A stretch of DNA of 64,000 bases from an uncultured Gemmiger sp. (GTDB lineage Bacteria > Bacillota > Clostridia > Oscillospirales > Ruminococcaceae), in the NCBI GenBank assembly GCA_944386225.1, contig CALXAH010000005.1, forward strand, positions 86,198-150,197, written 5' to 3'. The notes under the pieces are model-generated. The model was given only the letters and a program-made list of their open reading frames with translations, did no database searches and was not told where the DNA came from. Below, in pieces: positions 34,890-40,739 of this stretch. Both the position numbers and the translations under genes were made by a program. How positions within the stretch are numbered: the stretch's first letter is position 1; every line of letters begins with the position of its first letter.

Positions 34890-36155
34890 TCATCGTGATG
34901 TGATGTTGCAGGTAACGGTATAGGTGCCGATGGCGAACACCCGCGGATTGGACGGTACCTGGATCTGCACGGCCACCGTCTGGGTGCCCACCGCCACCTG
35001 CAGATCCTCGGCGTTGATGCGGGCTTCGATGCTGCCGGCGGAGAGCTGTTCCAGATCCTCCTCCGGGCCTACCAGCACCACGTTGTTGATCCGCTTGGTG
35101 GTAACCTCCACCTGGTAGTTGGCGGGCACGTTGATCACGTTGATCTGGCTGACATTGAAGCTGCGCTCGTTCATGCCGGTGGTGTCAAAGCTCAGGGTGA
35201 CGCTGCTGATGTTCTCGTTGCTGACGATGCCTTCCGGCAGCTCCACATTCATCTGGTAGTCTTTATCCAGCGAGAAGGTGGACAGATCGAAGGAACCCAC
35301 CGACAGCTCGGTCAGGTTGTTGACCACCCGTTCCGGCCCGGATACCAGCAGGGTTTCCTGGCTGAGGCTGTACTGCAGGGTGTTCACGTCAAAGTAGCTG
35401 GGCACGTTGATGAAGTTGACCACCAGCGGCAGCTCCACCTGTTTGTAGACCGACACCGTCACGTCCACGATGTCGTCTTCCATGGTGGTGTAGGACAGAT
35501 CCAGCGTTTTGCCGTTGGCATCCCGCATTTCCAGCGGTACCTGCACCAGCTGGGATTCGCTGAGTTCGCCTTCCATCGAGAGCGATGCCACCACGGCGGT
35601 CACCTGGGACACCTCGGTGGAGGGGCCGGTGATGGTGATTTCCGAGGGCGAACTGCTGACCCGGTTGAGGGAGTAGCCCTCCGCGATGTGCAGGCCGCCG
35701 GTTTCCACCGTGACCGGCAGGGTCTTGGTGAGGATGGTGTCGAACACCACGTCCACCGTGCGGCGGCCCCGGTCAATGGTGGCGGTGACCCGGCTTTCCA
35801 GATCCGGGTTGACGATCTTCACGTTCAGGTTCAGGGTCTGGCTGCCCGCGCCCTTGACCGAGGAGTAGTCCGGATAGACCACAAAATCGGAGGCCCGGGC
35901 CGCGCCCAGCACCGAACCGTCGCCGGAAAGGCTCAGATCCACGGTATAGGAGGGCTCGTTCACAATATCCAGGCCCAGGGTGGTGTACTTGGCGGAATCG
36001 TAGTCAAAATCCACCGGCACGCCGCTCAGGGTGGTGCTGGTATTGGGCATGACCGACATGGTCACGTACAGCCAAAGCAGCACCGCAATGCCCAGGCTGA
36101 GCAGCAGCAGAAAGCGCCGGTCGCCCCACAGTTTCTCCCACTTAAACTTTTTCAT
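34890..36155 (-). CDS. cdaR: CdaA regulatory protein CdaR (YbbR-domain protein)
   Basis: The 421-residue protein has one N-terminal membrane segment (RFLLLLSLGIAVLLWLYVTM, about 13-32). The rest is extracellular with about four YbbR repeats, for example around DFDYDSAKYTTLGLDIVNEP and LPLVVNFINVPSYFDV. CdaR binds CdaA at the membrane and adjusts c-di-AMP synthesis. The start overlaps the end of cdaA by 14 bp, so the two are coupled. No glmM is next to them here, unlike the usual cdaA-cdaR-glmM order. Confidence 0.92.
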   Translation of the reverse strand: MKKFKWEKLWGDRRFLLLLSLGIAVLLWLYVTMSVMPNTSTTLSGVPVDFDYDSAKYTTLGLDIVNEPSYTVDLSLSGDGSVLGAARASDFVVYPDYSSVKGAGSQTLNLNVKIVNPDLESRVTATIDRGRRTVDVVFDTILTKTLPVTVETGGLHIAEGYSLNRVSSSPSEITITGPSTEVSQVTAVVASLSMEGELSESQLVQVPLEMRDANGKTLDLSYTTMEDDIVDVTVSVYKQVELPLVVNFINVPSYFDVNTLQYSLSQETLLVSGPERVVNNLTELSVGSFDLSTFSLDKDYQMNVELPEGIVSNENISSVTLSFDTTGMNERSFNVSQINVINVPANYQVEVTTKRINNVVLVGPEEDLEQLSAGSIEARINAEDLQVAVGTQTVAVQIQVPSNPRVFAIGTYTVTCNITSR

Positions 36156-37026
36156 GTTTCTTTCTCCAGAAAGGTTGTTTCTTTGTCTTTTTCTCCGTTT
36201 CGGGCGGCACGATCTCTTCCATCAGCAGGTTGAACAGGTTCTGCCGGTCCAGACGGCGGATCAGAACGCCGTTCTTTGCCAGAGAAATGATGCCGGTCTC
36301 CTCGCTGACCACCACGATCACCGCGTCGGAGTTTTCGCTCATGCCCAAAGCGGCCCGGTGCCGGGTGCCCATATCCTTGCTGATCTCCAGGTTATTGGAG
36401 AGCGGCAGCACGCAGCCGGCGGCTTTGAGCACGCCGTCCCGGATGACCACCGCGCCGTCGTGAAGGGGGGTACCCTCATAAAAGACGGTGCCCAGCAGTT
36501 CCAGCGTTACGTCGGCGTTGATCAGGGTGCCGGTGCGGATGATCTCGGAGAGGTTGGTGCCCCGTTCCATAACGATCAGGCCGCCGGTACGCTCCTCACT
36601 GAGCTGCTCGGCCGAATCGCACACCGCCACAATGGCGTTTTTCCATTTGGCCCGCACGGCGTCGTCGTTGCTGCGGTGCATCTTGAACAGGTTGCCCGCC
36701 CACTGGTCGGTGCGACCCACCTGTTCCAGCGCCCGGCGGATTTCCGGCTGAAAGACCACCACAAGGCTCAGCAGGCCGATCTGCAGCACGTTCTGCAGCA
36801 GGTAGGCCACCGTGCGGAACCGGAAGGTATCCGCCACCGCGTAGACCACCAGCAGCAGCAAAGCGCCCCGGGCCAGCTGGCCCGACCGGGTCTTGCGCAC
36901 CAGGTTCAGAATGCCGTAGACCACCAGCGCCACGATCAGGATATCCAGTACATCCCGCAAATCGCTGGCTTTCAGGTTGTAGATGAAATCCGAAATAAAC
37001 TCGTTCTGCAATATCTGGCTGAACAA
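36142..37026 (-). CDS. cdaA: Membrane diadenylate cyclase CdaA
   Basis: I chose the TTG at 37026 because CAGGAGGAAG lies upstream; the product has 294 residues. Three N-terminal membrane helices (about 15-95) precede the DAC domain. The DAC motifs are intact: HDGAVVIRDG and GTRHRAALGMSE. The enzyme makes c-di-AMP from two ATP and controls osmotic balance and wall homeostasis. It starts the long operon to the nucleoside kinase. Confidence 0.94.
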   Translation of the reverse strand: MFSQILQNEFISDFIYNLKASDLRDVLDILIVALVVYGILNLVRKTRSGQLARGALLLLVVYAVADTFRFRTVAYLLQNVLQIGLLSLVVVFQPEIRRALEQVGRTDQWAGNLFKMHRSNDDAVRAKWKNAIVAVCDSAEQLSEERTGGLIVMERGTNLSEIIRTGTLINADVTLELLGTVFYEGTPLHDGAVVIRDGVLKAAGCVLPLSNNLEISKDMGTRHRAALGMSENSDAVIVVVSEETGIISLAKNGVLIRRLDRQNLFNLLMEEIVPPETEKKTKKQPFWRKKHEKV

Positions 37027-37079
37027 ATCCGCTTCCTCCTGTCCGGGGCTTGGCCCCCGCGGGGCCACACTTAAACTTT

Positions 37080-37124: not shown

Positions 37125-38243
37125 TTACCGGGTCAGCAGTGCCACCGCGTGGGCCGCGATCCCCTGCCCCGCGCCGGTAAAGCCCAGTTTTTCCTCGGTG
37201 GTGGCCTTCACATGCACCCGGCCCTCCGGCAAGTTCAGCGCCGCGGCCAGATTGGCCATCATGGTGGGGATATGGGGCGCCAGCTTGGGCGCCTGGCACA
37301 GAATGGTGGCGTCCACGTTCTGCACCGTCCAGCCCTCGTTGGCCAGCAGCGCCGCTACGTGGGAGGCCAGCTTCAGGCTGTCCGCCCCCTTATAGGCCGG
37401 GTCGGAATCCGGGAAATGGCGGCCGATGTCCCCCAGCCCGGCCGCGCCCAGCAGCGCGTCCATGATCGCATGGGCCAGCACATCCGCATCGGAATGGCCC
37501 AGCAGACCTTTTTCATAGGGGATATCCACCCCGCCCAGGATCAGGCGGCGGCCCTCCACCAGCTTATGTACGTCGTATCCGTGTCCCACACGCATATCCA
37601 TCGCGGTATCCTCCTTGGGCAGATCTTCCCGGGTGGTAATCTTGTAATTGGCGTAGTCCCCGGTGGTAAGCAGCACCGGGCAGCCGGCCTGTTCCATCAC
37701 CTGGCAGTCGTCGGTCAGGGCGGCGTAGTCCACCGTTTCCAGCGCGGCCAGGTAACGGGCCCTGTCCACGCACTGGGGGGTCTGCACCGCGAACAGCGCC
37801 GCCCGGTCGGGGGTGGACTGCACCCGGCCGTCCCGGGCCACCTTGACCGTGTCCTTGACCGGTACGGCAGGGGCGGCGGCCCCGCAGCGGGCGGCCCCCT
37901 CCAGCGCGGCGGTGATGACCGTTTCGCTCACAAAGGGGCGGGCCGCGTCATGGATGGCCAGCAGCTGCCCGGAGGCAGCCTGCGCGCCCCGGCGCACGCT
38001 CTCGGCCCGGGTGGCGCCCCCCTCCACCACCCTGGCGGGCAGGCGGCAGGCAGCGGCGATGGCCTCGGCCCGTTCCCGGTTGCCCGGCCCCGCCACCAGC
38101 ACCAGTTCACTGACCAAGGGATGCCGGTCAAAGGCCTGCACACTGCGCTCCAGTACGCTGCGGCCCTGCCAGGTATAGGCCAGCTTGTCAAAACCCATCC
38201 GGGTGGACGAGCCGGCGGCCACGATCACGGCGGTAACGGTCAT
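37125..38243 (-). CDS. ispDF: Bifunctional IspD-IspF enzyme of the MEP pathway
   Basis: The 372-residue protein is a fusion. IspD (1-210) has the CTP loop AAGSSTRMG with Lys20, and transfers CMP to methylerythritol phosphate. IspF (217-372) begins [12 protein letters not shown] with the Zn ligands Asp and His, and cyclises the diphosphocytidyl product. The order D-F in one chain occurs in several bacteria. IspE is absent from the window. The gene lies between spo0A and cdaA on the same strand. A TATAAT lies at 38297-38292 on the minus strand with a weak -35. Confidence 0.95.
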
Positions 38244-38414: not shown

Positions 38415-39164
38415 TCAGCCGATCCGCTGCTTTTTGTCCAGCCGCATCCGGTCGGCGATCATGGCAATGAACTCCGAGTTGGTGGGCTTGCCCCGCAGGT
38501 TGTGGATGGTGTAGCCGAAATACATGTTCAGCGTGTCCACATCGCCCCGGTCCCAGGCCACCTCGATGGCGTGGCGGATGGCCCGCTCCACCCGGCTGGC
38601 GGTGGTGCCGTTCATCTTGCCGATCTCCGGGTAAAGCCGTTTGGTCACGGCGTTGATGTACTCCGGATCGGCCATGGTCAGCAGGATGGCGTCCCGCAGG
38701 AACTTGTAGCCCTTGATATGGGCGGGCACCCCGATCTGGTGCAGAATCTCGGTGACCGCCGCCTCGTCGTTGTCCACCGCGATGCGGGGCCGGGGCGGCA
38801 TCCCCGCCGCCCGCATGACCCGGGCCGCCAGCACCGTTTCATCAAAGGGTTTGACGAAATAGAAAGAAAATCCGCTTTCCAGCAGTTCCTGCTCCAGATC
38901 CTCGTTGCGGAAGTTGCCGGTGACGAAGAACACGGTATTGCCGCCGCCCGCCGCCGCGTACCGCTGCTTGACCGCCAGCGCGTCCAGCCCCGGCATGAAG
39001 GCTTCCAGCAGCACCGCCCGGGGCCGCTGTTCCAGCAGGCAGCGCAGCGCCGCCTCCCCGTCCCGCTCGCATACCGATACTTCCACACCTTTTTGCTCCA
39101 GCGCGCCGCGGCAGGCCTCGGTGGCCGCGCCGATGTCCGTCATCAAAAATCGAATCTTTTCCAT
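38415..39164 (-). CDS. spo0A: Spo0A sporulation regulator with non-canonical receiver domain
   Basis: I chose the ATG at 39164 behind GGAGGAG; the protein has 249 residues. The C-terminal Spo0A DNA-binding domain is highly conserved (IGVPAHIKGY, NGTTASRVERAIRHAIEVAW, KPTNSEFIAM). The receiver domain keeps Asp10, Thr82 and Lys105. The phospho-acceptor position reads LLEAFMPGLD with Glu54 instead of Asp, and the second acidic-pocket residue is Ile11. Phosphorylation by a classical relay therefore seems impossible or altered. The gene follows spoIVB on the same strand, as in Bacillus, but has its own promoter. Confidence 0.95.
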   Translation of the reverse strand: MEKIRFLMTDIGAATEACRGALEQKGVEVSVCERDGEAALRCLLEQRPRAVLLEAFMPGLDALAVKQRYAAAGGGNTVFFVTGNFRNEDLEQELLESGFSFYFVKPFDETVLAARVMRAAGMPPRPRIAVDNDEAAVTEILHQIGVPAHIKGYKFLRDAILLTMADPEYINAVTKRLYPEIGKMNGTTASRVERAIRHAIEVAWDRGDVDTLNMYFGYTIHNLRGKPTNSEFIAMIADRMRLDKKQRIG

Positions 39165-39217
39165 TGTCTTCTCCTCCATTAGTTCTCCGTTGCGGCGGAT
39201 TTCCTTGTCTGGAGTAG

Positions 39218-39246
39218 ATTTTACCAGTTATTTCCAATTTGTGCAA
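39218..39246 (-). promoter_or_regulatory. Promoter of spo0A
   Basis: On the minus strand TTGCAC (39246-39241) and TAAAAT (39223-39218) are 17 bp apart, 54 bp before the start codon. An imperfect 0A-like box, TGTCGAG, lies upstream at 39282-39276. Confidence 0.65.
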
Positions 39247-39376
39247 TAGATTCCAAATTTTTCTTTGGATTTTTTCTCGACAGAAAATCACCCGGCAGCA
39301 GCGGGTTTCGCCCCCTCTCGCCCGCCAGCCGTCGAAGCGGCGGGGAACGGGGCGGAGGATTTATAGGGCTACATGC

Positions 39377-39431: not shown

Positions 39432-40658
39432 TTAGCCCGCCATATCAGTAGGAATCAGGCTGTCCGCCGTTTCCAGCATATTCTCGGCAAAAATGCCGTA
39501 GCCGCGGGTGGGATCGTTGACCAGCACATGGGTCACCGCCCCCACCAGGCGGCCGTTCTGGATAATGGGGCTGCCGCTCATTCCCTGCACGATGCCCCCG
39601 GTGGTGGCCAGCAGATCCGGGTCGGTCACTCGCAGCACCAGGTTCCGGTTGGGATCCTGGCGGGACAGGGTGACCTGCTCGATCTCCACCTCGTACAGCC
39701 TGGGTTCGGTGCCCTCGATGGTGGTCAGGATCTGGGCCGGGCCCTCCTCCACCTCCTGGGACTGGGCCACCGTCATGTCCTGGCCGCCCAGCAGGGTGCG
39801 CACGGTGCCGTACACGCCGGTGGCGTCGTTGCCCAGCACGGTGCCCACCGCGATCTGGCTGGCAAACCGCCCTTTCAGCTGGCCCGGATCCCCCACCCGG
39901 CCGGGCTCGTAGCCGATGATCTCCACCGGCACGATCTCACCGCTGCGCAGCACGATGCTCTCCCCGGTGTCGGTATCGCTGATGGAATGCCCCAGCCCGC
40001 CGAACATGCCGGTGGTGTTGTCCACAAAGGTCAGGGTGCCCACCCCGGCGGAGGAGTCCCGCACCCACACACCGGCGCGGAAGTTGCCGTCCGACAGATC
40101 CACCGCCGGGGTCAGGTTGGTCACCGCCTGCACCCCGTCCCGCTCATACACCACGGTGCAGGGGTCGGAGCCCGCCGCCTGGATGGCGGCCCGCAGATCG
40201 TCGTTGCCGGTGATGCGGCTGCCGTTCACCGAGAGGATCCAGTCCCCCATTTCCAGGCCCGCGTCCCGGGCCGGGTTGCAGTAGCCGGAAGCGGAGCGTA
40301 TATCGCTGAACCCCACCACCAGCGCCCCGTCGGAAAACATCTTGACCCCGAACGGGCTGCCGCAGACGGTGACCACCCGCCGGTCCACCACCACGGTGCG
40401 CACGGTTTTGACCGGCACCACCCCCCACAGGGTCAAGGTGGTGTTGTAGCTGCCGCCCACCGGCACAGCGGACGCCTGCAGCACCTGATCGCCGGTATCG
40501 GCGGTGCGTACCCAGGGCATGGGCGCGATGGTCAGGGTCTGCCCCTGCGCCACCAGAAAGGTATCCGGCAAACGGCTGAAGGTATACCCCACCACCCCCA
40601 GAAACGCCACACACAGCACAATCAGCAGCATTACCAGCCGCCGCAGAAAGGTTCGCAT
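39432..40658 (-). CDS. spoIVB: SpoIVB serine peptidase (S55)
   Basis: From the ATG at 40658 (behind GAGGAGGG) the protein has 408 residues. One membrane anchor (about 8-28) is followed by a PDZ domain (about 95-185, with ARDAGLEMGDWILSVNGSRIT). The S55 peptidase domain comes last. The catalytic histidine is probably in GLGHSISD and the serine in GMSGSPIIQNG (361-363). SpoIVB is made in the forespore and cuts SpoIVFA to free the pro-sigma-K protease. BofA, the other regulator of that step, is also encoded in this window. Confidence 0.94.
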   Translation of the reverse strand: MRTFLRRLVMLLIVLCVAFLGVVGYTFSRLPDTFLVAQGQTLTIAPMPWVRTADTGDQVLQASAVPVGGSYNTTLTLWGVVPVKTVRTVVVDRRVVTVCGSPFGVKMFSDGALVVGFSDIRSASGYCNPARDAGLEMGDWILSVNGSRITGNDDLRAAIQAAGSDPCTVVYERDGVQAVTNLTPAVDLSDGNFRAGVWVRDSSAGVGTLTFVDNTTGMFGGLGHSISDTDTGESIVLRSGEIVPVEIIGYEPGRVGDPGQLKGRFASQIAVGTVLGNDATGVYGTVRTLLGGQDMTVAQSQEVEEGPAQILTTIEGTEPRLYEVEIEQVTLSRQDPNRNLVLRVTDPDLLATTGGIVQGMSGSPIIQNGRLVGAVTHVLVNDPTRGYGIFAENMLETADSLIPTDMAG

Positions 40659-40739
40659 TGGTTTTGCCCTCCTCGGCCCGCCGGGCGGCGGGCGGAATTT
40701 TGGGGGCGGCACACCCGCGCCGCCCCTGTCCTGCCAAAA

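Follow-up and report, generated by a model that had tools for sequence, protein, structure and literature searches.

Phosphorylation of Spo0A is generally regarded as the gate to endospore formation. The spo0A gene in the window, the 64,000-nucleotide stretch of DNA from an uncultured Gemmiger sp. that was analyzed here, encodes glutamate at the position of the phospho-acceptor aspartate, and this raises the question of how such a Spo0A is controlled. The initial annotation treated the glutamate as an oddity of this one gene and suggested that the protein may be locked active, or may be controlled by its abundance or another input and not by a phosphorelay. The oddity proved to be real, but it is not a single case, as the pattern is order-wide and recurrent. 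The reading favored here, and considered probable, is that phospho-control has loosened throughout the order and that the window protein is one case of this, a Spo0A whose pseudo-receiver works independently of phosphorylation. In all counts given below, family, order and class are those of the window genome itself (Ruminococcaceae, Oscillospirales and Clostridia).

The gene lies on the minus strand, which had not been stated before, and the interval first assigned to it, 38415-39164, fits a frame that begins at the ATG at 39164 (Table 1). An alternative in-frame ATG at 39179 would extend the frame to 254 aa; the ATG at 39164 appears to be the better start because a GGAGGAG ribosome site was seen by eye 6 nt 5' of it. 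A plus-strand frame over the same interval is also open, but by eye its translation was not Spo0A-like. The protein matched the equivalog model for Spo0A (TIGR02875) over residues 28-250 with 229.4 bits against a cut-off of 200, and its Spo0A_C half shares 57-60% identity with Spo0A DNA-binding domains of solved structure, some of them DNA-bound, in agreement with the conservation of this half that was described initially. An AlphaFold model (mean pLDDT 92.9, pTM 0.65) was confident within domains, and the modelled receiver has the receiver fold and matches Spo0A receivers at 24-29% identity. The neighbourhood of spoIVB and spo0A, together with the sporulation gene set, is that of a Spo0A locus. 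No second match to Spo0A_C (PF08769) was found in the window's own 3.38-Mb genome, rated 99.8% complete; a second Spo0A in this genome was ruled out, the sole match being the window gene. Judged from its sequence, the gene is a true, single Spo0A orthologue with a conserved DNA-binding half. The closest named records were those of Gemmiger sp. An120 and two Gemmiger metagenome assemblies (98-100% identity), followed by Faecalibacterium, Fournierella and Anaerofilum (68-77%); those named for Gemmiger, Fournierella or Anaerofilum derive from genomes G001-G003, G014 and G135 themselves and are not independent evidence. On the other side of spo0A from spoIVB, an IspD-IspF fusion (37125-38243) separates it from genes for the cyclic-di-AMP synthase CdaA (36142-37068, minus) and a YbbR protein (34890-36155, minus), which lie about 1.3-3.5 kb from spo0A.

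Table 1. Positions in the window of spo0A, its domains and key residues, and the features upstream of it.
Feature	Position	Strand	Basis or remark
Spo0A_C DNA-binding domain	38448..38756	minus	PF08769, 149 bits
spo0A, 249 aa	38415..39164	minus	Open frame, start ATG at 39164
Receiver (pseudo-receiver) domain	38817..39137	minus	PF00072, residues 15-121 (254-aa numbering)
Conserved Lys (Lys105), kept	38850..38852	minus	Alignment; codon 38852-38850
Thr-Gly	38916..38921	minus	Gly (38916-38918) in Thr/Ser column, Thr one residue earlier
Phospho-acceptor (Asp56) position, Glu	39003..39005	minus	Sequence and alignment; codon GAA at 39005-39003
Asp10 kept and Ile11, second acidic residue lost	39132..39137	minus	Alignment; codons 39137-39135 (Asp10) and 39134-39132 (Ile11)
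Putative sigma-A-like promoter	39218..39246	minus	TTGCAC-17-TAAAAT by eye; 4/4 genus genomes
0A-box-like TGTCGAG	39276..39282	minus	One mismatch; 4/4 genus genomes
0A-box-like TTCGACG, opposite orientation	39330..39336	minus	One mismatch; TTCGAC core in 4/4 genus genomes
spoIVB (peptidase S55 with PDZ), sporulation gene	39432..40712	minus	Next gene upstream of spo0A

Inspection of the receiver pocket bore out most of what had first been reported, namely the Glu at the acceptor position, the retention of Asp10 and Lys105 and the replacement of Asp11 by Ile. The exception was Thr82, which had been listed as kept. Of 88 outgroup rows, 87 have S or T in the Thr/Ser column, which in the window protein is occupied by Gly88 (Gly83 in the numbering used initially). 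Residues 81-110 (254-aa numbering) are equal in length in all 242 sequences compared (154 from the family and 88 from the outgroup), and in this alignment the column holds Gly, with the neighbouring Thr one residue before it within the same strand. The possibility that the switch Thr is kept was rejected on this register, which is that of the sequence alignment. The same Thr-Gly arrangement is found in 41 of the 154 family rows. The receiver has therefore lost three of its five key residues (to Glu, Ile and Gly), not the two implied by the initial annotation, and only Asp10 and Lys remain. Where a phosphorylatable receiver has an acceptor Asp and two acidic metal ligands, the window protein reads Asp-Ile-Glu, and of the switch Thr/Ser and the Lys only the Lys is present. 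What is left is a fold that PF00072 (Response_reg) still recognizes, if narrowly (33.8 bits against a cut-off of 30.2), with Glu in place of the acceptor Asp, as in a pseudo-receiver. Beside the acceptor loop, at residue 67 (254-aa numbering), the receiver motif MPxxDG reads MPxxDA in 147 of 154 family rows and retains DG in 86 of 88 outgroup rows, so that MPxxDA is a signature of the family.

These residues bear directly on the suggestion that the Glu imitates aspartyl phosphate and keeps Spo0A permanently active. ChxR of Chlamydia, likewise a DNA-binding response regulator, naturally carries Glu at its acceptor site; its output family differs from that of Spo0A. The retention of Asp10 and Lys is in keeping with mimicry, and passages of PMC12632262 state that Glu can partly activate many regulators and that the mimic 'perhaps' acts through binding to the conserved Thr and Lys. 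However, the idea of a lock is weakened because Gly replaces the switch Thr/Ser in the window protein. Passages of PMC4395418 add that an Asp-to-Glu change alone is often insufficient, with Spo0A among the examples (Green et al. 1991 is cited there), and that ChxR, a natural Glu pseudo-receiver with constitutive DNA binding, kept that binding when its Glu was changed to Asp or Ala. A sporulation switch that is always on would also be costly unless control had moved elsewhere. With the Thr absent in register and Glu alone often insufficient, activity locked by Glu mimicry was left unsupported, and we regard it as rather unlikely. A different way to keep the classical logic would be phosphorylation on the Glu or elsewhere in the pocket, for instance on the adjacent Thr, while Asp10 binds the metal. 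Glu is modifiable in principle, Asp10 and Lys are again kept, and the frequency of Thr-Gly in the family suggests a selected new Thr, but the second metal-binding acid is Ile; this point is taken up again with Spo0E below.

The Glu is a stable feature of the window genus. It is present in all four genomes, encoded by GAA in three and GAG in one. A sequencing error is unlikely, as all four assemblies carry Glu and do so with synonymous codons. Across six pairs in this genus (dS about 0.3), dN/dS was 0.027 for the receiver and 0.012 for the DNA-binding domain; the Glu receiver is thus kept by strong purifying selection, and the open frame together with these ratios ruled out a pseudogene or decay in this genus. 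Among the other Glu groups the receiver dN/dS was 0.05 in g25 (6 pairs), 0.22 in L044-L046 (3 pairs), 0.11 in g59 and 0.31 in g29 (one pair each), and in Asp groups (g25, g11, g110 and g58) it was 0.08-0.17, the remaining groups being saturated. Purifying selection on the receiver is therefore unequal, and weaker in the other Glu groups than in the window genus.

The higher of these ratios, up to 0.31 in the g29 pair, could mean that receivers drift under relaxed constraint in lineages heading toward sporulation loss, which is described as common in gut Firmicutes in a passage of PMC8340488. Sporulation markers were mostly retained in the 42 genomes searched: SpoIVA was above its cut-off in 41, including all four of the window genus, SpoIIE was matched in 42 (2 over the cut-off), SpoIIGA in 40 (2 over) and SpoVAD in 42 (19 over, with one match, in G077, probably spurious). 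The window genome itself matched all four, with SpoIVA above the curated cut-off and SpoIIE, SpoIIGA and SpoVAD under theirs. At least one marker was missing or lacked a convincing match in 4 of 22 Glu genomes (G002, G020, G059 and G077), in 0 of 13 Asp genomes and in 0 of 5 with another residue. SpoIIGA was not found in G020 or in G002 (75% complete), and SpoIVA was not found in G059 (83% complete). That these gaps are confined to Glu genomes is mild evidence that some Glu lineages are drifting. As an explanation of the Glu receiver, however, relaxed constraint must be set against the ratios of 0.027 in the window genus and 0.05 in g25, which are below those of the Asp groups, against spoIVB adjoining spo0A and against SpoIVA over its cut-off throughout the window genus. 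It is considered unlikely. Two further observations were made on these markers. In G077 (genus g75, Glu) SpoIIE (C18) gave only fragmentary matches, which is also true of its Asp relative G166. The SpoVAD match, of only 22 bits, is probably spurious, which makes this genome a candidate for sporulation loss. Also, SpoIIE of the window genus and of several near relatives (e.g. L305) matches its profile only from about position 190-310 on, so the front part of this protein is highly diverged in the Gemmiger/Faecalibacterium clade.

The initial annotation proposed that the acceptor residue be scored in related Spo0A proteins. For this, 344 Spo0A loci were read (343 matched, 2 too short), giving 329 distinct rows after identical ones were merged. 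Family rows are the best-scoring matches, a non-random set; of the 396 genomes searched they cover 155, in 69 genera, and two more family genomes (G014 and G135) were merged with identical named rows. From the class draw, 88 of 131 matching genomes were read, and from the order draw 71 of 91; the lower-scoring matches were left out, so the outgroup may look too canonical. The rows dropped were L005 and L006 (no receiver room), L195, L112 and L346 (short) and L260 (masked letters). The first two, both from genome G003, are Spo0A-like DNA-binding frames without room for a full receiver, and short Spo0A_C frames of about 80-160 aa are numerous in the order listing, with several per genome in some species. 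The acceptor was Glu in 26 of 154 distinct family rows (120 Asp, 6 Asn, 1 Ser, 1 Gly) and in 12 of 71 from the rest of the order (54 Asp, 4 Asn, 1 Ser). In the rest of the class it was Glu in 1 of 85 rows (83 Asp, 1 unreadable), and in named loci in 5 of 19 (13 Asp, 1 Asn). Pocket erosion extended well beyond the acceptor. All five receiver residues were kept in 34/154 family rows, 22/71 from the rest of the order, 77/84 from the rest of the class and 8/19 named rows, and the acidic triad in 60/154, 23/71, 78/84 and 8/19, respectively. Glu occurs in 16 of the 69 family genera tallied, seven of which have both Glu and Asp; g12 is an eighth such genus, its Asp genome G014 being one of those merged with a named row. 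Asp and Glu species are thus paired inside single genera, for example g25, g12, g18, g64 and g75. A one-off origin of the Glu acceptor was ruled out by its recurrence across the order.

How often this happened was estimated on a single-gene tree of 328 rows (LG+G4, SH-aLRT support) from which six receiver columns had been removed. Parsimony gave 27 Asp-to-Glu changes, 8 Asp-to-Asn, 1 Asp-to-Ser, 1 Glu-to-Gly and 1 Asn-to-Ser, with no Glu-to-Asp reversals. When weakly supported branches were collapsed, at least 27 changes between Glu and other residues remained at an SH-aLRT threshold of 80 and at least 23 at 95. Glu was the endpoint of 27 of 36 losses of the acceptor Asp on this tree and of 19 of 24 on a 260-row tree, where twelve other Asp-rich columns gave Glu in 94 of 308 losses (Fisher p 3.4e-6 against the acceptor). 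This preference for Glu speaks in favor of phosphomimicry. However, Glu was also favored at the two of the twelve control columns that are other acidic pocket sites (21/29 and 16/30) and at one control site in the DNA-binding half (16/18). Since aspartate-less receivers at large have Glu more often than any other replacement (26%, in a passage of PMC4395418), part of the preference is ordinary chemistry. In tree-aware pairs Glu showed no tie to changes of the second acid, the Thr/Ser or the Lys. The Glu itself may cause nothing, because Asp-bearing members of the family also have eroded pockets.

Spo0E-like proteins (PF09388) remove phosphate from Spo0A in Bacillus. No Spo0E-like match was found in any of 40 family genomes, in which a diverged copy of these very short proteins could escape detection, and matches were present in both of two outgroup genomes. 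Of the 156 genomes in the class draw, 58 had a match, and none was found in the four same-order genomes among those listed in that draw. A comparison over the 87 class-draw rows that could be read, including 3 from the same order, showed that all 52 Spo0A rows from Spo0E-bearing genomes were canonical, compared with 25 of 35 rows without Spo0E, the other 10 being degenerate (p 4.6e-5, uncorrected for kinship). A tree-aware comparison of Spo0E with pocket erosion gave 5 supported pairs, none of them informative; the association is carried by few clade-level changes. Spo0E has been modelled on the Spo0A receiver over Asp56 in a passage of PMC11115286, and a review lists the Ruminococcaceae among groups in which the phosphorelay is absent (in part of PMC11210211). 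For phosphorylation on the Glu or a nearby residue, the absence of a Spo0E-like match from all 40 family genomes is a second difficulty beside the Ile, and we consider such phosphorylation very unlikely.

If phosphate does not set the activity of Spo0A, its amount might. The consensus of the 0A box is TGTCGAA. A promoter scan gave the putative promoter of Table 1 as TGCACA-16-TAAAAT, with a TG before the second hexamer. In the stretch upstream of spo0A in the window genus no exact 0A box was found; the two sites there each carry one mismatch, and a single one-mismatch box is expected by chance. Exact boxes were sought within about 250 bases 5' of spo0A, with expectations from a first-order Markov model, and were present at 9 of 30 Glu loci (0.6 expected) and 42 of 132 Asp loci (3.8 expected) from the family and named sets, and at 37 of 87 outgroup loci (1.6 expected). 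Glu lineages thus keep 0A boxes near spo0A at about the rate of their Asp relatives. Upstream of spoIIE (1/15 Glu, 3/12 other family, 0/2 outgroup) and spoIIGA (3/13, 2/15 and 0/2), where starts are uncertain and about 0.4 exact boxes were expected in each family set, none of the boxes in the loci compared was convincing.

The model that best accommodates these data has the receiver turned into a pseudo-receiver, in which Glu replaces the acceptor Asp, Ile the second metal-binding acid and Gly the switch Thr/Ser. The usual phosphotransfer from a histidine kinase would then be unable to switch the window Spo0A, which is most likely active without phosphate, in a state competent to dimerize. Its output would be set mainly by the amount of protein, through its own promoter and the 0A-box-like sites, by a receiver-binding protein, or by both. 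On this view phospho-control would have been released throughout the order, with the acceptor Glu as one result, and a negative charge at that position may be favored as a support for an active-like or stably folded pocket together with Asp10 and Lys. The part of the initial annotation that suggested control other than by a phosphorelay stands in this form, as we infer from the missing acceptor Asp, second acid and Thr/Ser and from the lack of a Spo0E-like match. A broader version, in which Spo0A was freed from phosphorylation across the order, the phosphatase family went missing, the pocket eroded in most lineages, Glu was selected more than 20 times and entry into sporulation came to be set by amount or by a receiver-binding partner, is offered more tentatively, as a possible history.

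Compared with Spo0A of Bacillus and Clostridioides, the window protein is alike in domain order, DNA-binding domain, adjoining spoIVB and single copy. It differs in having Glu, Ile and Gly for the acceptor Asp, the second acid and the Thr/Ser, and no Spo0E-like match was found in the genomes of its family that were searched. Aspartate-less receivers and laboratory Asp-to-Glu Spo0A are already known. Passages of PMC4395418 and PMC12632262 report that aspartate-less receivers keep the first acid in 65% of cases, have an acidic residue at the second position in only 29% and largely keep the Lys, and the window Spo0A follows the residue tendencies given there. Unlike those cases, here it is the single Spo0A of a genome that is affected, and many times in one order. 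No description of a natural Spo0A as an aspartate-less receiver was found in the available text of PMC12632262, where Spo0A does not occur, or in that of PMC4395418. In the open-licence PMC literature no report of natural Spo0A pseudo-receivers was found, nor any paper that couples 'D56E' with Spo0A or treats D56 of Spo0A together with phosphorylation-independence, and the main text of PMC6136694, on evolution of the Spo0 pathway, mentions neither Ruminococc- nor Oscillospir- nor Faecalibacterium.

The recurrence amounts to about 27 natural repeats of the Asp-to-Glu change made in the laboratory, and the Asp and Glu species pairs within g25, g12, g18, g64 and g75 provide a direct test bed for the phosphomimic question. 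Should Spo0A work without phosphorylation in an order that includes many gut bacteria, the search for sporulation kinases in it would be misdirected and the input signal would be open. Sporulation in these relatives of Faecalibacterium may be switched on by a different route.
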